From NCBI RefSeq assembly GCF_003173355.1, contig NZ_QGMY01000008.1, positions 372,001-436,000 of the forward strand: a stretch of 64,000 nucleotides of DNA, read 5' to 3'. The notes beneath the pieces were generated by a model that ran no database searches, had not been told where the DNA came from, and saw only the letters and a program-made list of their open reading frames with translations. This document shows, in pieces, positions 717 through 52,001 of this stretch. Source of the stretch: Methanospirillum lacunae (GTDB lineage: Archaea; Halobacteriota; Methanomicrobia; Methanomicrobiales; Methanospirillaceae). A program made the position numbers and the translations under genes. How positions within the stretch are numbered: position 1 is the stretch's first letter; each line of letters begins with the position of its first letter.

Positions 717-2027
717 ATGAATTCCAATATTGGCCAATCTAAAGCAATATTATTACATGAAAAATATTGTGGGAAAATAGGTATCCATTCTAAAATAAGG
801 ATGGATGGCAATTTACCGTATGTATATACTCCAGGTATAGCAGATGTAGCACAAAAAATAAATGAAAATCCTGAATATGCATTTAAAAGTACAATTAAGA
901 AAAATTCAGTGGCTATTGTAAGTGATTGTTCACGTGTGTTGGGGTTAGGACCGATAAAACCAGCAGCAGGACTAGCAGTCATGGAAGGAAAAGCAGTTTT
1001 ATTTAAAAAAATTGCAGACATTGATGCATTCCCTATTTGTTTAGATACTACTGATGAAGATGAAATTGTCAGAACGGTCTGCAATATAGCTCCTGCATTT
1101 GGTGGTATAAATTTAGAGGATATAGCATCAGTAGGTGGGAAAAGTTTTAATGTTGAAGATAAATGTAAAAAATTGATCAAAACCAAAGAAAATCCAATAC
1201 CAATATGTCATGATGATCAACATGGGACTGCAGTGGTTGTTCTAGCAGCGATGAAAAATGCTCTTCGTATAGCGAATAAAGATATTCGAAGCGCTAAATT
1301 TGTTTTTATTGGATGTGGTAGTGCTGGCTATGCGTGTTATGATCTCTTTAAAAAAGCAAAAATGAATCCCAATAATGCAGATGTCTTCCACAAGATTATG
1401 GATAAAAATAATCACGCCGAATTAGTAACTAATATTTATAAAAATCGTGATGATTTTGATCTTTTAAATTGTAAAGAAAAAATTGTCGCTGAAGATTCAG
1501 CGAGAAAGGAAAAAATGACATTGTTAGAGGCTATGAATGACGCCGACGCGGTCATTGGTTTGTCTGAATCTAAGAAGGACGGTAATGTTATATCTGAAGA
1601 AATGATTCAAGTAATGAATCCGGAAACTCCTATCGTTTTTGCCCTAGCAAACCCGTACCCTGAAATTAGTTATCAAAAAGCAAAAAAGGCTGGCGCAGAA
1701 ATAGTTGCAACAGCGCTTTCTGGAACGCCTAATCAAGTCAATGATATTATCAGCATGCCTGCTATTTTTCGAGGAGCTCTAGATGTGGGAGCGACTGAAA
1801 TTTCAACAAATATGTTATTAGCAGCTACAGAAGCATTAAGATCTTCAGTTCCACAAGTAAATGATGTAAATCATATTATCTCATTACCTGGAAGAGTTGA
1901 AGCAGTAGCTGAAATGGCGTATCAAGTTGCAATAGTTGCAAAAAGAGATAACCTAATAAGAAATCATGAATGGGATAAAGATAGGTACAAGGATGAAGTT
2001 ACAAAACGAATAGAACCATTTTGGTAA
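717..2027 (+). CDS. Malic enzyme (oxaloacetate-decarboxylating malate dehydrogenase)
   Basis: The protein has 436 residues, the usual size of the short prokaryotic malic enzymes, which oxidatively decarboxylate malate to pyruvate and CO2 with NAD(P). Visible family motifs are YTPG near residue 37, the substrate-lysine segment GKAVLFKKIADIDAFPI near 91-107, the metal ligands in GGINLEDIA near 129-137 and HDDQHGTAVV near 165, a nucleotide-binding IGCGSAGYA segment near 195, and a late PNQVNDI...IFRGALDV block. All key motifs are present, so it should be active. The gene is clearly AT-rich, with many AAA, AAT and ATA codons, unlike the metabolic genes further along, which suggests transfer. NAD or NADP preference cannot be read. 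Confidence 0.9.
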   Translation: MNSNIGQSKAILLHEKYCGKIGIHSKIRMDGNLPYVYTPGIADVAQKINENPEYAFKSTIKKNSVAIVSDCSRVLGLGPIKPAAGLAVMEGKAVLFKKIADIDAFPICLDTTDEDEIVRTVCNIAPAFGGINLEDIASVGGKSFNVEDKCKKLIKTKENPIPICHDDQHGTAVVVLAAMKNALRIANKDIRSAKFVFIGCGSAGYACYDLFKKAKMNPNNADVFHKIMDKNNHAELVTNIYKNRDDFDLLNCKEKIVAEDSARKEKMTLLEAMNDADAVIGLSESKKDGNVISEEMIQVMNPETPIVFALANPYPEISYQKAKKAGAEIVATALSGTPNQVNDIISMPAIFRGALDVGATEISTNMLLAATEALRSSVPQVNDVNHIISLPGRVEAVAEMAYQVAIVAKRDNLIRNHEWDKDRYKDEVTKRIEPFW

Positions 2028-2065
2028 AAATCTATAGGTTATATATTCGGATTAAAATCTTTAAT

Positions 2066-2506
2066 TTATCCTAAAGGAATATATCGTAATCCATATTTTA
2101 GGTATGGATTAGTTGAATCCATATTTTCTAATTTAAATTTACAATAATCTTCTAATGTAGAACGTTTTTCTGATTTAGTAGCAGAAAAACTCATTTTCTC
2201 TCTATTCGATAAATTTTGATAATCTATCATTTGGTATAGATATTCATCAGTTGTTGAGTTATACCCCTTTATTAAATATATTTGATTTAGATCAATTTTG
2301 GCATTGGTATATAATGTGTTATTTCTCAATGTTGGCATGGTTTGAATTTTTTCTAAAAAAGATAAATTAATTTTAGATTTGATTATTGCTAGTTGATTAT
2401 AAAAAATGTTATTATCCTTATGAATAGAAGAATCTGTGTATAGAAGTGCCATTATAATACCTATTATAATAATGGGCAATATAATTCGATATAAATATTT
2501 TGACAT
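2066..2506 (-). CDS. Unknown membrane-anchored protein
   Basis: This hypothetical protein has 146 residues. A hydrophobic segment at about residues 7-24 (LPIIIIGIIMALLY) after a short basic N-terminus points to an N-terminal anchor or uncleaved signal. The remainder is polar, lysine- and asparagine-rich and presumably outside the membrane. No family is recognised. It is convergent with the malic enzyme and lies in the same AT-rich stretch. Its start is the last base before a gap that holds no convincing gene. Confidence 0.5.
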   Translation of the reverse strand: MSKYLYRIILPIIIIGIIMALLYTDSSIHKDNNIFYNQLAIIKSKINLSFLEKIQTMPTLRNNTLYTNAKIDLNQIYLIKGYNSTTDEYLYQMIDYQNLSNREKMSFSATKSEKRSTLEDYCKFKLENMDSTNPYLKYGLRYIPLG

Positions 2507-2685
2507 ACTATAATTTTCCTTATCGTAATAATAGATTAAATAGAATTTTAATCCACAAAAAAATATGCATTATTTCTATTATATTATTGGAAATATCTTT
2601 GAATAATGTTATTACAATATATTTTATCCCATCTAAATCGGAGTTTTATTCTTCTTCAACTCTGTTCAATGAGCAATTCCTTTGA

Positions 2686-3188
2686 TTTTATCTAATCCTA
2701 AAAACCTCTTTGGGCTTTATCGCCTAATTGTATTGTAAACACTGGGAGTTGTCTTAATATAAAAAATGAACTCTTTACGATTTTGTTTAAATGGTGATCG
2801 AATTAAAAAAAATAATTCGAAATCTTTTACCCTGTTCATTTAATTTGAAGGAAAAATGGCCGATTTTATATCAAAGACAATCCCTAAGTCGGCTGAGCGA
2901 TATTTCATGACCGATTGATACCATTGCGAACTTCATGGCTCTTGTCCAGTATATCCTTGACGATCACCACTGGGGGTGTTCTTCAGACACCTCAAAAAAT
3001 GATAGATGTCTGAACTACTCAAAAATCATGGTTCAATCTCAAAATTTAGTCGAAAATTGATCTATTACTCCAAGGAAACAGATCTGGCATCTCGATACAG
3101 TCTCTCTATGTTCATCAGTCCCGGAAAAAAACATCTTAAGCAGATAGATGTACTTATACATACTGAGAATCCCCAATAGGACATCAGA
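2686..3188. other. Intergenic stretch with a possible decayed ORF
   Basis: About 500 bases without a convincing gene. A 41-codon frame on the plus strand, 2935-3060, starts MALVQYILDDHHWGC and reads like coding sequence. The bases before it (2859 onward) also read as peptide in a neighbouring frame, so a frameshifted gene remnant is possible. An inverted repeat CGAATTA-A7-TAATTCG lies at 2799-2819, and a shorter one (GGTGT...ACACC) near 2975-2992. The stretch marks the change from AT-rich DNA to more typical composition. Confidence 0.3.
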
Positions 3189-3419
3189 ATGATAATCCCT
3201 GAAAAACACCGGGAAACTGAAATATTCTTTGTTGTGGAAGAGGCCGATGAGGGCGGTTATATTGCCCGATCACATGCATTTCCCATATACACTCAGGCAG
3301 ATACCCTCGATGAACTCCGGGAGATGGTTCGTGATGCCGTCCTCTGTCACTTTGGAGACAAACCAGCCCCGACCCTAATCAGACTTCATATCGTTAGGGA
3401 TGAAGTTCTCGCCGTATGA
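3189..3419 (+). CDS. hicB: HicB-family antitoxin (short form)
   Basis: The protein has 76 residues with the HicB partial RNase H-like fold: a beta strand near residues 10-18 (IFFVVEEADEGGYIA), then ARSHAFPIYTQADTLDELREMVRDAV, the usual pattern in which a helix follows a TxxEL segment. There is no C-terminal DNA-binding domain, as in the short HicB type. HicB normally binds and neutralises the HicA mRNA interferase. Here the adjoining hicA overlaps by four bases (ATGA) but is broken, so this antitoxin seems to be an orphan survivor, possibly cross-neutralising a HicA elsewhere. Family assignment rests on pattern and gene context. Confidence 0.7.
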   Translation: MIIPEKHRETEIFFVVEEADEGGYIARSHAFPIYTQADTLDELREMVRDAVLCHFGDKPAPTLIRLHIVRDEVLAV

Positions 3420-3654
3420 AAGTTCCCGGGATATTTCTGGATCTGATTTGATATCCTATCTTATTTCGATAGGATTTTAAAAAATAAGGCAGACGGGAAA
3501 TCATATTTGGCTCGAATGGGTGATCGATGGGGAACTGTATGGAATAACTGTTCCATTACATGATCCTCTCAAAACCGGAACTCTTACTCACATAGTGAAA
3601 GAAATCGCACAAAAGACCGGAAGAGACTGGATATCGATTATGGAAGAACAGTAA
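3416..3654 (+). pseudogene. hicA: Broken hicA toxin gene (frameshift plus in-frame stop)
   Basis: Starting at ATG 3416, the first codons give MKVPG. One base is then missing around 3428-3430, because the rest of the family pattern continues in the next frame: DISGSDLISYLISIGF from 3430. A TAA at 3478-3480 sits where a lysine is expected (GF-stop-KIRQTGNHIWL), and the frame then runs open to TAA 3652-3654 through VPLHDPLKTGTLTHIVKEI. Repairing the two lesions gives about 79 residues, the full HicA length, with the catalytic histidine of the TGNH segment kept. HicA is a double-stranded-RNA-binding-fold mRNA interferase. Two lesions and otherwise intact sequence suggest recent inactivation. A sequencing error could explain the frameshift, but is less likely for both. 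Confidence 0.75.
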
Positions 3655-3666
3655 TCAGACGATTTT

Positions 3667-4038
3667 ATGGCGATAGTGACGGTGGATGTCCTTCTAAAGT
3701 TGCATCAAGTGGCCATTTTGATATATGGAGGAACTGATGGAATTCTTAATGAAGGGACACTCTACTATCTCACAGAAAAGACATCTCACTGTTCTGATCC
3801 AATTATTAAGGCCACATTTTTGCTTCACGGGATAGCAACCATGCACCCATTCTTTGATGGCATTAAGAGGACTGCTCTTATGGCAGCAAACACGGTATTG
3901 GGTCTTCATGGTCTCATGATTACAGCTTCTAATGAAGTAACTGTATCATTTGTTCTGTCTGTTGCACGTGGAGAGAAGACAGAAAATCAAGTGGGGATAT
4001 GGATTGGGAAAAATAGTGATATGTATCGTAGTTATTGA
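3667..4038 (+). CDS. Doc-like Fic-fold protein with altered core motif
   Basis: The protein has 123 residues, the usual length of Doc (death-on-curing) toxins, which phosphorylate EF-Tu using the Fic fold. The N-terminal part follows the Doc pattern (LLKLHQVAILIYGGTDGILNEG), and the helix and core loop are at residues 60-68: HPFFDGIKR. Family members normally read HxFxDGNKR. The Asn is Ile66 here, while His60, Asp64, Lys67 and Arg68 remain. That Asn lies in the phosphate-binding loop, so activity may be weakened or lost. No Phd antitoxin gene precedes it. Instead it follows the broken hicA by 12 bases. Start ATG 3667 has no obvious ribosome binding site. Confidence 0.75.
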   Translation: MAIVTVDVLLKLHQVAILIYGGTDGILNEGTLYYLTEKTSHCSDPIIKATFLLHGIATMHPFFDGIKRTALMAANTVLGLHGLMITASNEVTVSFVLSVARGEKTENQVGIWIGKNSDMYRSY

Positions 4039-9941: not shown

Positions 9942-10312
9942 TTCAGTATTGAGTACGCTTCTGCAACTTCTTTCAATGCATGGGTTAGTTCAGCAATATT
10001 GCGTGAATTTGTTTCCTCTTCAATGCTAATGAGCAGATATTTGAAAGTTTGTTCAAATAGTTCATCGAGATTAATGTCCATTTCTGATATCTGGGTCTCT
10101 GAATTTTTAAACCTGGGTTCCGTATTATGACTTCTGGATACTGAATCTCCTTTGTTTTCACCCATTGCTTCGAGATCTGACTCCTTACATACTACGCACG
10201 ATGTTTCACCTTTATATTCAAAGAGCGGGGAGCCGCAATTCTGACATGTCTTTGCAAGCATCTTTCCTCCCTTGAGAAGATACTCTGCCATGATCTCATC
10301 TGGTTTTCTCAT
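9911..10312 (-). CDS. Zinc-ribbon protein of the Sjogren/scleroderma autoantigen 1 family
   Basis: The protein has 133 residues. The N-terminal 45 residues carry the family signature MRKPDEIMAEYLLKGGKMLA followed by a C4 zinc ribbon, CQNCGSPLFEYKGETSCVVC. The rest is an acidic linker and a predicted helix. Members of this family are widespread in archaea and eukaryotes, and their role is unclear. The 3' end overlaps hef by 31 bases on the opposite strand. Confidence 0.85.
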   Translation of the reverse strand: MRKPDEIMAEYLLKGGKMLAKTCQNCGSPLFEYKGETSCVVCKESDLEAMGENKGDSVSRSHNTEPRFKNSETQISEMDINLDELFEQTFKYLLISIEEETNSRNIAELTHALKEVAEAYSILNQRYGNRDNS

Positions 10313-47024: not shown

Positions 47025-47318
47025 ATGCTGAATATTGGATCTGATGTTCAGGGAGGGCTTCTGGTTGTCAGTTTTTTAATAATAATCCAGATAACGTTCA
47101 ATTTTTTTCGATCAGGTATACCAAGACTTCGTGTAATTTTTCTAACAATTCTCTGCTATCTTATATGGTTCTGCAGTTTCCTCTTAACCCTCACTGGAGA
47201 TGGGCTCAGCGAGGGTATTCTCTGGGAGATACTAAGTTTTCTTGGAATGGCTTCAACTCTCTTTGTCCTATTCATTGGAATTTACGAGATTCTGGCAAAC
47301 CCTGGTGTGATCCGCTGA
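47025..47318 (+). CDS. Small three-helix membrane protein upstream of the CARF-HEPN gene
   Basis: The protein has 97 residues. Three hydrophobic segments lie near 10-30, 37-55 and 65-88. ATG 47025 follows AGGAGAAG (47008-47015), and a TATA-like CTTTATAGG lies near 46988-46996. No family is recognised. It precedes the CARF-HEPN gene by 72 bases on the same strand, which makes a shared function possible. A TATA-like ATATATAG between the two genes (47327-47334) means they could also be transcribed separately. Confidence 0.55.
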   Translation: MLNIGSDVQGGLLVVSFLIIIQITFNFFRSGIPRLRVIFLTILCYLIWFCSFLLTLTGDGLSEGILWEILSFLGMASTLFVLFIGIYEILANPGVIR

Positions 47319-47390
47319 AGCAGAGTTGAATATATAGGATCACTATCCTGTATCGGAAGGAAGATTATCCATCCTGATCTATCTTCTCCG

Positions 47391-48659
47391 ATGTATCTCC
47401 TCATGACGGTTGGGACTGGAATAGGTTCTGATACCGTTGATGCAATTGAGCGACTCGTCCGCTCATGCAGTTATGTAATCCACTTCTACCGGCCTGAGCA
47501 TGTTATTTATTTCTGCTCACCTGAAAGCAAAGAACTGGTCAGCAATATCAAGGAGGGATGCAAAAGGCTGTGGGGTCAGGAGCCCCCGGAGTCTGAAACA
47601 TGCATAATCGGAGATCCAAATGATTTTTCCCAGTGTTTTGAGGTGATCTATGGTGTCTGTGTCCTCTTTCAGGAATTTGAGATAGTCATTGATGCAAGTT
47701 CAGGAACGAGATCAATGACCATGGCAGCATCTATCGTATCATTTCTGACCCGGAGTCCGGTGGCACATGTTACCGGAGAAAAAAAGGGAGGTTTGGTGAT
47801 CCCGGGAACTGAAAAGATGAAGGAAATGACCCTTTTTGCTGCTTATGATCGTCTCCGTTTTCATCAGGCAGTTGATCAGTTCAATAATAATCACTTTGGT
47901 AGTTCACTTGAACTGCTATCCGGACTCTCTACCATCCCTGAACGTGATCTCTATTATTCTCTCTTTCATGGATACTACTCCTGGGACAAATTGAACTATG
48001 CTGAAGCATTCAGGTATTTACAACATGCAGATGACCTGACGGAAGGTGTAGCCCGAAACCGGGAATTTCTTCACAAACTCCTCGACCTTGAAGTAAAAGG
48101 AGAGAATGGGTTTTCAAAAAAAGAGCGGTGCAGATACAAACAGGAGAAGTACCTCTATGTCCTCGTGGATCTTCTCAATAATGCCAAACGGCGGATCGAG
48201 GGAGAACGATATGATGATGCTTTTGCTCGGCTTTACCGGGTAGTAGAACTCCTCTCTCAGGTCCTCCTACTCAGATGGAACATTGACGATATTGAAGGAA
48301 AGATCCATTTCACTGAGCTTCGTAAGATTCTTCGCAACAAGAAAGATGTCTCACTCTATGCCCGTAGGGCAGACCGGAAGGGAGTGATTCGTATAGGGCT
48401 GCGATCAAAATTTATGCTGCTTGAAGATCTCGGGATGCAGGGTGCCGGAGAATATTATCTGCACCTTGAGCCTTTCCTCAGAATCCGCAATGAATCAATC
48501 CTTGCCCACGGTCTTTCACCAGTGCATGGTGACGAGGCACGGGAGATGTGGGGTGAGGTCTTCACTATTACCCGCCGTGCATGTACTGATATGCCATTTG
48601 ATCTTGAGAATCTCCTGGTGCAGTCTGCATATCCACACCTTGAGAATCCGATAAATTAA
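47391..48659 (+). CDS. Stand-alone CARF-HEPN ribonuclease (Cas02710/Csm6-like)
   Basis: The protein has 422 residues. The N-terminal CARF-type Rossmann domain (about 1-145) shows MTVGTGIGSDTVDAIE and the ligand-loop motif DASSGTRSM at residues 101-109. A helical middle part follows. The C-terminal HEPN-like domain carries the catalytic pattern RNESILAH (Arg366, His373; RX6H). This is the layout of the TIGR02710/Csm6-type proteins, which are activated by cyclic oligoadenylates made by type III CRISPR complexes and then cut RNA. No cas gene, Cas10 or array lies within the window, so the activator would come from elsewhere or be different. Confidence 0.8.
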   Translation: MYLLMTVGTGIGSDTVDAIERLVRSCSYVIHFYRPEHVIYFCSPESKELVSNIKEGCKRLWGQEPPESETCIIGDPNDFSQCFEVIYGVCVLFQEFEIVIDASSGTRSMTMAASIVSFLTRSPVAHVTGEKKGGLVIPGTEKMKEMTLFAAYDRLRFHQAVDQFNNNHFGSSLELLSGLSTIPERDLYYSLFHGYYSWDKLNYAEAFRYLQHADDLTEGVARNREFLHKLLDLEVKGENGFSKKERCRYKQEKYLYVLVDLLNNAKRRIEGERYDDAFARLYRVVELLSQVLLLRWNIDDIEGKIHFTELRKILRNKKDVSLYARRADRKGVIRIGLRSKFMLLEDLGMQGAGEYYLHLEPFLRIRNESILAHGLSPVHGDEAREMWGEVFTITRRACTDMPFDLENLLVQSAYPHLENPIN

Positions 48660-49430: not shown

Positions 49431-50651
49431 ATGAAACTCGCTTCGTGCAGGAAACGGTATCAACAGGAGACTCACCGGACAAAATCCCCTGAAGAAACCT
49501 ACGCGATTATAAAGGACCTTGTTGTTCCGGCCGGAATAACCCGTGTTGCTGACATCACCGGACTTGATCGGCTAGGAATCCCTGTATTTTCATGTATAAG
49601 GCCGGATGCTGCCGAAGGATCAATTTCTGTCTATAACGGGAAAGGTGCAACCGAGATGGCTGCACGGGTCTCTGCCATCATGGAAGGGCTTGAGCGGTAC
49701 TCTGCCGAGATGCATGATCGTCTCCCGGTGATGGGAACAATTGATCAGATGGCAGACGGCAGGGATCTGATCGATCCCACTGAACTAATTCTGCCCAAAG
49801 GCGTTGATCTGACCTTCCCGATTCCCTGGTTTTCAGCAAGTGACATTATGCAGGAGAGTGATGTCCTTGTACCTGCTCATGCAATCTTTCACCCGGTTCA
49901 CCGGAGTATGGGCCAGCTCTTCAGAACCAGTACCAACGGGATTGCATCAGGCAACACTCTTGAAGAAGCGGTGTTTCATGGCCTTTGTGAGATCATTGAA
50001 CGGGATGCCTGGTCTCTGGCAGAGGCTGTAAACAGAGGAGGTCCGGTAATTTCTGGGATTGAAAACCAGACCATTCTCTCTCTGTTGAATCGATTCAAAG
50101 AAGCAGGAGTTGAGATAATTCTTCGGGATATCTCAAGCGAAATTGGCCTTCCAACTGTTGCTGCAGTTGCTGACGATGTCACACTCAGAGATCCGACTCT
50201 CCTCTGTATCGGGATGGGAACTCATGCTGTCCCAGAAATTGCAATTCTCCGTGCCCTTACCGAAGCTGCACAAAGCAGGGCAACCCAGATTCACGGAGCA
50301 CGTGAAGATACCCAGGACAGCCACATGAAGCGGCAGATCGGATATGACCGGACAAAGCGTCTGAATAAAAAATGGTTTGAGACCGGTCATACTATCGACT
50401 TTTCAGAGATGTACGCCTTTCGATCTGAAGATTTCCTTGATGATATTGCATACACCCTCAGGGAGCTGAAGAAGGCAGGAATCAACCATGTCCTCGTTAC
50501 TGATCTCACAAGACCTGAAATCGGGATTCCTGTCGTCAGGGTTATCGTTCCAGGGCTTGAACATTTTGCAATGGATCCTGAACGTATTGGAAATAGGTGC
50601 AGAAGTGCCAGACGTAATTATTTACCTGGGTCCAAGCCTGCCTCTGCATGA
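49431..50651 (+). CDS. ycaO: YcaO protein for McrA glycine thioamidation
   Basis: The protein has 406 residues of the YcaO family, ATP-dependent enzymes that activate backbone amides. Family segments include YNGKGATEMAARVSAIMEGL (ATP-binding Glu), GIASGNTLEEAVFHGLCEII, ERDAWSL and ALTEAAQSRATQIHGAREDT. In methanogens YcaO with TfuA converts a glycine of methyl-coenzyme M reductase alpha to thioglycine. The adjacent tfuA, which overlaps by 47 bases, supports this subtype rather than a natural-product YcaO. Confidence 0.92.
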   Translation: MKLASCRKRYQQETHRTKSPEETYAIIKDLVVPAGITRVADITGLDRLGIPVFSCIRPDAAEGSISVYNGKGATEMAARVSAIMEGLERYSAEMHDRLPVMGTIDQMADGRDLIDPTELILPKGVDLTFPIPWFSASDIMQESDVLVPAHAIFHPVHRSMGQLFRTSTNGIASGNTLEEAVFHGLCEIIERDAWSLAEAVNRGGPVISGIENQTILSLLNRFKEAGVEIILRDISSEIGLPTVAAVADDVTLRDPTLLCIGMGTHAVPEIAILRALTEAAQSRATQIHGAREDTQDSHMKRQIGYDRTKRLNKKWFETGHTIDFSEMYAFRSEDFLDDIAYTLRELKKAGINHVLVTDLTRPEIGIPVVRVIVPGLEHFAMDPERIGNRCRSARRNYLPGSKPASA

Positions 50652-51282
50652 GGCAGAATTGATCCTTCCTTCAGGATCAGCAGTTCAATATTGTCCACCG
50701 GTAAAACGGGGTGATCTTGCCGCAGCCATTGCAGCAAAGCCGAAGATTATCGGGATCATCGATGGCCTCTTTTTTGAGAATGCTTCGGTTGGTCATCGTG
50801 AGATCCTGGGAGCGATGAAGGCCGGGATCAGAGTGATAGGAGCGTCGAGCATGGGTGCCCTTCGTGCAGCCGAACTCTCTTCATTTGGCATGGAAGGAGT
50901 CGGTGAGGTGTATCGCCGTTATCAGGAAGGTGAGATTGAGTCTGATGATGAGGTTGCTCTCATCTGCGATCCCGTATCAAACACCGCCCTTTCTGAAGCA
51001 CTCGTCAACATCAGAATTACTCTTGAAAAAGCTGAATCATCAGGTATTATAACCCCGGAAGAACGGATGGCTTTGTTTTCAGAGGCACAAAAACGGTATT
51101 ATCCTGATAGGACCTGGACCCAGGTGATCAGGGGGGCAGGTCTCCCCTCAGATCGCACAGAAGAAATTCTCTCCTGGGTCAAAACTTCCCGGGTGGAGCA
51201 GAAGCAGGATGATGCGAAAGCCGCTCTCAAATATATTGCCACATTGATGCATCCTTCCAAAACTCAGGATGAGATTTCATGA
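50605..51282 (+). CDS. tfuA: TfuA-related McrA glycine thioamidation protein
   Basis: The protein has 225 residues from GTG 50605, preceded by AGGTG; the longer frame to 50488 lies inside ycaO in another phase. It begins VPDVIIYLGPSLPLHEAELI as in the family, and contains IIGIIDGLFFENASVGHREI and GASSMGALRAAELSSFGM. TfuA partners YcaO and is thought to deliver sulfur or to recruit it. The stop overlaps the thiF-like gene as ATGA, giving a coupled operon. Confidence 0.9.
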   Translation: MPDVIIYLGPSLPLHEAELILPSGSAVQYCPPVKRGDLAAAIAAKPKIIGIIDGLFFENASVGHREILGAMKAGIRVIGASSMGALRAAELSSFGMEGVGEVYRRYQEGEIESDDEVALICDPVSNTALSEALVNIRITLEKAESSGIITPEERMALFSEAQKRYYPDRTWTQVIRGAGLPSDRTEEILSWVKTSRVEQKQDDAKAALKYIATLMHPSKTQDEIS

Positions 51283-52001
51283 ACACTACTAGTACCCGCT
51301 ACTCAAGGCAACTCCCACTCTTTGGGAGAGAGGGTCAGCAAAAACTTGCTGATGCAACTGTTTTCATCGCTGGGGCCGGAGGACTCGGTTCTCCGGTTGC
51401 TTGCTATCTTGCCATGGCCGGGATTGGCGAACTGATCATTGTTGATGATGATCAGGTTCAGGAGTCGAACCTGAATCGTCAGTTTCTTCATGCCAACCGG
51501 AACATCGGTATGAGAAAGGTGTATTCAGCAGCAGAAACCCTTACAGCCCTTAATCCTGATCTGACGATTACAGCCATTCCTGAACGCATCACAGCTGAAA
51601 CCATTGAAAGCCAGACCGGGGATGCAGATATCCTGGTTGACGCAACGGATAATTTTGAAACCCGGTATCTCCTGAATAAAGCAGCCTTTCAATCAGGAAT
51701 ACCCCTGGTACATGGGGCTGTTGAAGGTTTTTCAGGCCAACTAACCACGATTCTTCCCTGGGAGACCCCATGTCTGTCCTGTCTTTTTCACAGGGCACCT
51801 CCTGAACGTGATACTCCGGTAATCGGTGCGACAGCAGGTGTGATTGGATCTCTCCAGGCCATGGAAGTAATCAAGTACATAACCGGATCTGGTCGTCTTA
51901 TTGCAGGCAGACTTTTGATTTGGGATGGTCTGAGCGGAAGATCCGACTACCTTACATTATCAGCCCGGCCAGACTGTCCTGTCTGTCAAACCCTACGGTG
52001 A
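51279..52001 (+). CDS. ThiF/MoeB/HesA-family adenylyltransferase
   Basis: The protein has 240 residues. The nucleotide-binding motif is FIAGAGGLGSPVACYLAMAG. The segment DDDQVQESNLNRQFLH is the conserved catalytic region, and DATDNFETRYLLN follows. Zinc ligands appear as CLSC and CPVC. It adenylates the C-terminal Gly-Gly of a ThiS/MoaD-like carrier, here most likely the product of the next gene but one base group downstream. Confidence 0.92.
   Translation: MNTTSTRYSRQLPLFGREGQQKLADATVFIAGAGGLGSPVACYLAMAGIGELIIVDDDQVQESNLNRQFLHANRNIGMRKVYSAAETLTALNPDLTITAIPERITAETIESQTGDADILVDATDNFETRYLLNKAAFQSGIPLVHGAVEGFSGQLTTILPWETPCLSCLFHRAPPERDTPVIGATAGVIGSLQAMEVIKYITGSGRLIAGRLLIWDGLSGRSDYLTLSARPDCPVCQTLR

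Follow-up and report, generated by a model that had tools for sequence, protein, structure and literature searches.

A 422-residue protein with the CARF-6H-HEPN architecture of Csm6 was found to be encoded in the genome of Methanospirillum lacunae, away from any type III CRISPR-Cas locus and in a host in which no Cas10 was detected. Comparison across the genus showed that the gene belongs to the Methanospirillum core, is inherited vertically and is under strong purifying selection. On the evidence of sequence and phylogeny, it is best described as a former csm6 whose departure from its CRISPR operon predates the radiation of the genus. Its product is very probably a Csm6-derived, ligand-gated RNase, with dimerisation, ligand gating and RNase activity being predicted from its intact domains, and the evidence leans somewhat towards this RNase working without Cas10.

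Locus organization and domain composition

The gene lies in a 64-kb stretch of M. lacunae DNA (referred to here as the window), taken from an assembly (G000) of 3.74 Mb in 25 contigs with a completeness of 99.94%. The locus is common to named Methanospirillum relatives at 80–85% identity. Features of the gene and its immediate upstream region are given in Table 1.

Table 1. Features of the CARF-HEPN locus of M. lacunae (positions are those of the window; residues are those of the 422-aa protein).
Feature	Residues	Position	Strand	Basis or remark
Three-helix membrane protein, 97 aa, genus-only		47025..47318	+	Three hydrophobic segments; 72-nt gap to CARF-HEPN gene
Candidate RNA stem-loop over CARF-HEPN start codon		47351..47393	+	-14.2 kcal/mol, z -1.9
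CARF-6H-HEPN protein, Csm6/TIGR02710 type		47391..48659	+	422 aa; profile matches and AlphaFold2 fold
CARF domain	1-150	47391..47840	+	Strands and helices alternate in model; CARF fold matches
CARF motif I, VGTGIG	7-12
CARF motif II, DASSGTRSM	101-109	47691..47717	+	Sequence
Csm6 6H linker domain	152-229	47844..48077	+	PF22205
HEPN RNase domain	249-386	48135..48548	+	PF09670
HEPN catalytic motif, R366-N367-x5-H373 (RX6H)	366-373	48486..48509	+	R366-N367-E-S-I-L-A-H373

By sequence the protein is a member of the Csm6/TIGR02710 family, as its match to TIGR02710 (1.3e-47, residues 28-394) reaches 162.6 bits against a curated cut-off of 83.9. Profile searches also identified the HEPN domain of Csm6 (PF09670, 1.3e-34) and the Csm6_6H domain (PF22205, 1.5e-13), the start of the latter being used to set the end of the CARF domain. 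The resulting order of CARF, 6H and HEPN is that of Csm6/TIGR02710, and the best of the PADLOC CARF_HEPN models matched with an E-value of 3e-98. No membrane segment was indicated in the protein by Pfam or by the structure model described below. An earlier, sequence-only reading of this DNA had proposed a CARF ligand motif and an RX6H motif in the layout of Csm6/Cas02710 effectors. Both motifs were confirmed at the predicted residues, the latter inside the HEPN domain, and the layout is backed by all of these profiles as well as by the predicted fold.

The same reading had described a gene surrounded by housekeeping functions and not by a CRISPR locus, which was borne out. The neighbours scanned in the window encode RNase HII, an M50 protease, a DUF2769 protein, YcaO, TfuA and ThiF, and no array-like direct repeats were found in its 64 kb. 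Neither here nor elsewhere in the genus is the gene part of, or adjacent to, a type III CRISPR-Cas locus, its neighbours being housekeeping genes throughout. The candidate stem-loop over the start codon has a z of -3.3 in locus L037 and is weak in L038. Conservation is good in three genomes (G000, G167, and G199) and weak in G200, and the other half of the genus lacks the element; a conserved RNA hairpin was consequently ruled out, the element being confined to one genus half and weak in one of that half's four members.

Structure model

An AlphaFold2 monomer model of the protein, built from 32 aligned sequences, had a pLDDT of 91.6. The top Foldseek match in the PDB was cA4-bound Thermus thermophilus Csm6 (E 3.3e-13), followed, after the structures of this protein, by Csm6 of Streptococcus and Enterococcus. 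T. thermophilus Csm6 was also the sole strong family in a profile search of PDB sequences. The CARF domain additionally matched those of Cam1, Can2, Csa3, and ring nucleases among the PDB structures. Full-chain TM-scores were modest (0.4–0.6), which a difference in the inter-domain angle would explain; the match therefore rests on the individual domains and their order. The sequence-only reading had said that a structure without a CARF or HEPN fold would count against it; both folds are present in the model.

Type III genes in the host and the genus

No match to the Cas10 palm domain (PF22335), to the RAMP domain (PF03787) or to a full-length Csm1 query was obtained in the host genome. The PF22335 search was positive in five of 14 control genomes, and the Csm1 query recovered the Cas10 of G200, which served as its positive control. 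These three markers ruled out an overlooked type III locus in the host; the absence claimed is that of type III markers and does not extend to every CRISPR system. The earlier suggestion of an activating cyclic oligoadenylate (cOA) supplied by a remote type III locus is thus unsupported for this host, in whose nearly complete assembly neither Cas10 nor RAMP proteins were detected. A complete type III locus with a Csm6 of its own, which had been named among the evidence that would weigh against the sequence-only reading, was likewise not found, the host being without a detectable type III locus.

Two other candidates were also rejected. A CBASS-type CD-NTase (SMODS) as a source of cOA is absent from the host and above cut-off in G171 only. 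A Cas1-marked CRISPR system finds no support in the single Cas1 of the host (contig C3:93585-94532, or L106:13585-14532 on the plus strand; PF01867, 1.7e-56), which has neither an array nor another recognized cas gene near it in the stretch inspected. This gene is possibly a cas1-solo, and similar Cas1 genes occur across the genus. The same stretch holds, on the minus strand (L106:662-5648), a gene for a radical-SAM-like protein (CNLKCKYC), small repeated ORFs starting MVKK...VIDLSIEGVTGIG and short PqqD-like ORFs, which together look like a cluster for peptide (RiPP) modification.

Cas10 (PF22335) was detected in six of the 12 Methanospirillum genomes. The six in which none was detected are the host, the single-contig genomes G167 and G182, and G171, G199, and G202 (96, 67, and 75% complete, respectively); three of the genomes without a Cas10 match are incomplete or fragmented. 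This distribution bears on the main alternative, in which the protein would be an ordinary Csm6, activated by cOA, and would serve in trans whichever type III locus a strain carries, such loci being gained and lost often and the gene paying its way on average. Its appeal lies in the six genomes that have Cas10 and in the locus of G156, whose Cas10 retains a GGDD motif and in whose 19-kb stretch no CARF effector gene was seen among ORFs of at least 120 aa; such a locus would need an effector supplied in trans. For type III loci that lack effectors, it has been proposed that cOA signals pass from one locus to another (PMC11229360). However, three genomes of 99% completeness lacking all type III markers keep the gene, at a dN/dS of 0.045, and the III-A locus of Methanospirillum stamsii (L079) encodes a Csx1-type CARF-HEPN protein of its own. 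Moreover, three residues of motif II that do not vary among relatives encoded in type III loci are altered, even if an arginine could replace the lysine. Taken together, the in-trans alternative is regarded as possible but rather doubtful.

Maintenance within Methanospirillum

An orthologue was present in 11 of the 12 genomes of the genus, the exception being G201, which is 64% complete. In every genus locus the CARF-HEPN gene is directly followed on its own strand by ycaO and then, on contigs that extend far enough, by tfuA and thiF. This ycaO-tfuA-thiF row, at 49431-52001 (+) in the window, is conserved across the genus; in methanogens, ycaO and tfuA function in thioamide formation in methyl-coenzyme M reductase. 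The CARF-HEPN and YcaO trees have the same topology but for a single fork of weak support within the group of G000, G167, and G199.

Between G000 and G167, both of which are species without Cas10, the gene has a dN/dS of 0.045 (Nei-Gojobori), at a dS that is high (1.5) and near saturation. The values for YcaO, the M50 protease and ThiF in the same pair are 0.054, 0.061, and 0.087, respectively. Pairs with a lower dS gave similar ratios, namely 0.047 for G167-G199 (dS 0.81) and 0.039 for G156-G177 (dS 0.30). A dispensable leftover would not look compatible with these ratios and this pattern of inheritance. It may be that the species without Cas10 lost type III systems only recently, in which case the purifying selection may reflect an average over the past.

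Origin and relatives

A search across 199 genomes of the order returned 12 with a match. Eight belong to the genus, one to another member of the family (38% identity) and two to another family (35–36%), while the remaining one is a CARF-only fragment. The relative in G077 adjoins cmr1-cmr6 and cas6, and those in G036 and G060 lie between csm5 and cas6, so that both kinds of outside relative belong to type III operons; Cas10 was identified here as well. In a maximum-likelihood tree all genus sequences form one clade with a support of 100/100 on a stem of 1.07 changes per site, and this clade joins the G077 gene first and the G036 and G060 genes next. The nesting of the genus clade among relatives in Cmr and Csm operons is what points to a csm6 that would have left such an operon before the radiation of the genus.

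A wider scan of 84,980 species, with one genome per species, yielded 30 loci. Its motif-based patterns accept motif II in either version, and any relative from outside that carried the Methanospirillum form would thus have been found had it been in that collection. Most loci outside the genus have csm, cmr, cas6 or cas1 next to the gene, with short contigs limiting some others. The exceptions are five loci of Methanobrevibacter (L067, L070-L072, and L076), in which no match to Csm, Cmr, Cas6 or Cas1 was found. No small membrane gene of the 97-aa kind occurs beside them. In L070, L071, and L072 the Csm6-type genes start near position 10000, and the genome of L072 has a second copy (L068) inside a III-A operon; the genes of these three loci may therefore represent a second relocation. 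Locus L067, in which no cas gene match was found, holds two overlapping ORFs (1450-4037, +), the first for a 453-aa protein with a Rossmann-like start and the second for the Csm6-type protein. One scan of viral contigs found no relative.

Changes in the CARF pocket

The residues of the HEPN active site are maintained with little exception. In the alignment of 32 sequences (12 from the genus and 20 from outside), R366 and H373 are present in all 32 and N367 in 31, and the catalytic residues are intact throughout the genus. Motif II of the CARF domain, on the other hand, reads DYTSGTK outside the genus versus [DE]AS[ST]GTR within it, with Y/T/K in 20 of 20 outside relatives against A/S/R in 12 of 12 genus sequences (Y102A, T103S, and K107R). 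A further residue, R131, is replaced by lysine in all 12. When columns conserved in at least 16 of the 20 outside relatives were considered, those changed in the genus amounted to 11 of 40 in the CARF domain, one of 12 in the linker and two of 35 in the HEPN domain (CARF versus the rest of the protein, Fisher p = 0.009). As the pocket changes fall on one stem branch, the 12 sequences count as one event and not as twelve.

In the alignment with T. thermophilus Csm6, R107 falls on K137, and the K137A substitution in that protein abolished both cA4 binding and RNase activity (PMC10897365). The altered residues suggest a CARF pocket with a changed ligand or a changed affinity. The exchange of lysine for arginine is conservative and keeps the positive charge, and cA4 may still bind.

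An altered motif II would also be in keeping with a sensor of RNA damage, in which the pocket would read RNA ends or short linear oligonucleotides instead of cyclic oligoadenylate. Outside CRISPR signalling, a CARF-type sensor has a precedent in RtcR, whose domain of this type is reported to respond to damaged tRNA (PMC7790460; PMC9650030). However, the CARF domain of RtcR is divergent, and this analogy is considered a very improbable guide to the function of the present protein.

The adjacent membrane protein

The small membrane protein encoded upstream was modeled as three helices with low confidence (pLDDT 65), too poorly for a fold search or docking. Its family was recovered in eight of eight genus genomes at 1e-36 or better among the 199 genomes of the order, where nothing outside the genus passed 1e-3, and it is present in 11 of the 12 genus genomes.

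The sequence-only reading had suggested this protein as a partner, giving a membrane-linked RNase, and such a tethered unit, with the 97-aa protein anchoring or regulating the RNase and RNA cleavage thereby coming under the control of damage to the membrane or of a membrane signal, would account for several observations. The family and the CARF-HEPN lineage are both confined to the genus; the two genes are adjacent, with the membrane gene just upstream, in 11 of 12 loci; the membrane gene keeps this place though the gene upstream of it is not the same in one half of the genus as in the other; and its dN/dS of 0.05–0.20 indicates purifying selection. Against this, all cases come from one genus and the co-occurrence is not independent, the model does not permit docking, and the pairing is broken in several loci. 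In G182 the pair is separated by a DOMON gene of opposite orientation, the same wide gap is seen in G156 and G177, and L053 has an intact CARF-HEPN gene with no membrane gene at the expected site (this being a metagenome-assembled genome, the membrane gene could be elsewhere in it). The interrupting gene itself is at L031:9544-10107 (+) and matches PF03351 at 7.9e-31. The DOMON insertion, the wide gaps and L053 show that the two genes do not form a fixed operon and that the small protein is not an obligate partner at the locus; a strict operon was ruled out on the grounds of G182 and L053. What stands of the suggested partnership is an adjacent, genus-specific and constrained gene, upstream in nearly all loci; the idea of an obligate partner or fixed operon is weakened by the sequence comparison to the point of being unsupported, and the membrane-tethered unit is judged unlikely.

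Proposed function

The explanation that is marginally preferred is that of a Csm6-derived, ligand-gated RNase without a resident Cas10. A csm6 would have left its type III operon before the Methanospirillum ancestor and become a vertically inherited core gene. Judging from the biochemistry of Csm6 (PMC10897365) and the intact residues, the protein would act as a homodimer in which the pair of CARF domains binds a small ligand of the adenylate type. Binding would switch on a composite HEPN site that cleaves single-stranded RNA non-specifically, and the cell would thereby be slowed or stopped. The activator is probably not, or not only, cOA made by Cas10; a source elsewhere is suggested because species without Cas10 keep the gene under strong selection.

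A more far-reaching form of this explanation, held only tentatively, has Csm6 gone from CRISPR for good, as a core RNase whose remodeled CARF domain would read a nucleotide signal not made by Cas10. One candidate for this signal is c-di-AMP, because two genes with diadenylate-cyclase (DAC) domains occur in most of the genus genomes. Such domains were detected in all 12; as a pointer to a specific source of the activator the cyclase was set aside as uninformative, since it is present in all genus genomes and also in most control genomes. Both c-di-AMP and RNA ends are guesses as to the activator. The DAC genes of the host are at C3:111151-111531 (-; L107) and C8:264487-264864 (+). The former is fused to PAS domains, and c-di-AMP synthesis by this protein may therefore respond to a sensor.

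CARF-HEPN RNases are regarded as the enzymes that carry out the type III CRISPR response, and as dependent on Cas10. A lineage which has fixed such an RNase as a core gene, with its ligand-contact motif changed, offers a test of whether other signals can command these enzymes, since in species that have no Cas10 its active site is under selection as strong as that acting on the housekeeping genes nearby. The genus is culturable and includes members with and without type III systems, providing a natural comparison. If Csm6 has indeed been emancipated here, machinery of cOA signalling would have been recruited to ordinary cell regulation.

Comparison with known systems

Members unlinked to CRISPR-Cas exist in every CARF family (Makarova et al., 2014; PMC4012209). 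A text search of that paper found no Methanospirillum case named in it, and no paper treating CARF proteins in Methanospirillum was found among the literature searched, a mention in the 2020 CARF classification being possible; one paper on another subject contains both Methanospirillum and Csm6. What is shown here beyond the 2014 paper is the vertical fixation of a Csm6-type CARF-HEPN protein together with the loss of Cas10 and the change of its pocket.

Among membrane-associated CARF effectors, Cam1 differs from the present case in that the 422-aa protein has no membrane segment and its pairing with the 97-aa gene is broken in several loci. The Csx1 family, represented in the genus by the M. 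stamsii type III locus, is alike in its CARF-HEPN layout; however, that protein is classed as CARF2 by PADLOC and lies inside a type III locus, whereas the 422-aa protein is classed as CARF1. The nearest outside relatives, at 35–38% identity, are the III-A csm6 genes of Methanocalculus and other Methanomicrobiales (L041 and L042) and the Cmr-linked gene of L040. Unlike the genus gene, these are part of type III operons, where they adjoin cmr genes or sit between csm5 and cas6, and they have kept DYTSGTK. The best fold match is T. thermophilus Csm6 (PDB 5FSH and 8JH1; TIGR02710, Cas_Cas02710, PF09670), with which the protein shares the order CARF-6H-HEPN and the R-N-H residues of the HEPN site. 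It departs from this enzyme in being encoded outside a CRISPR locus, as a core gene, in a host without Cas10, and in the replacement of Y/T/K by A/S/R in motif II.
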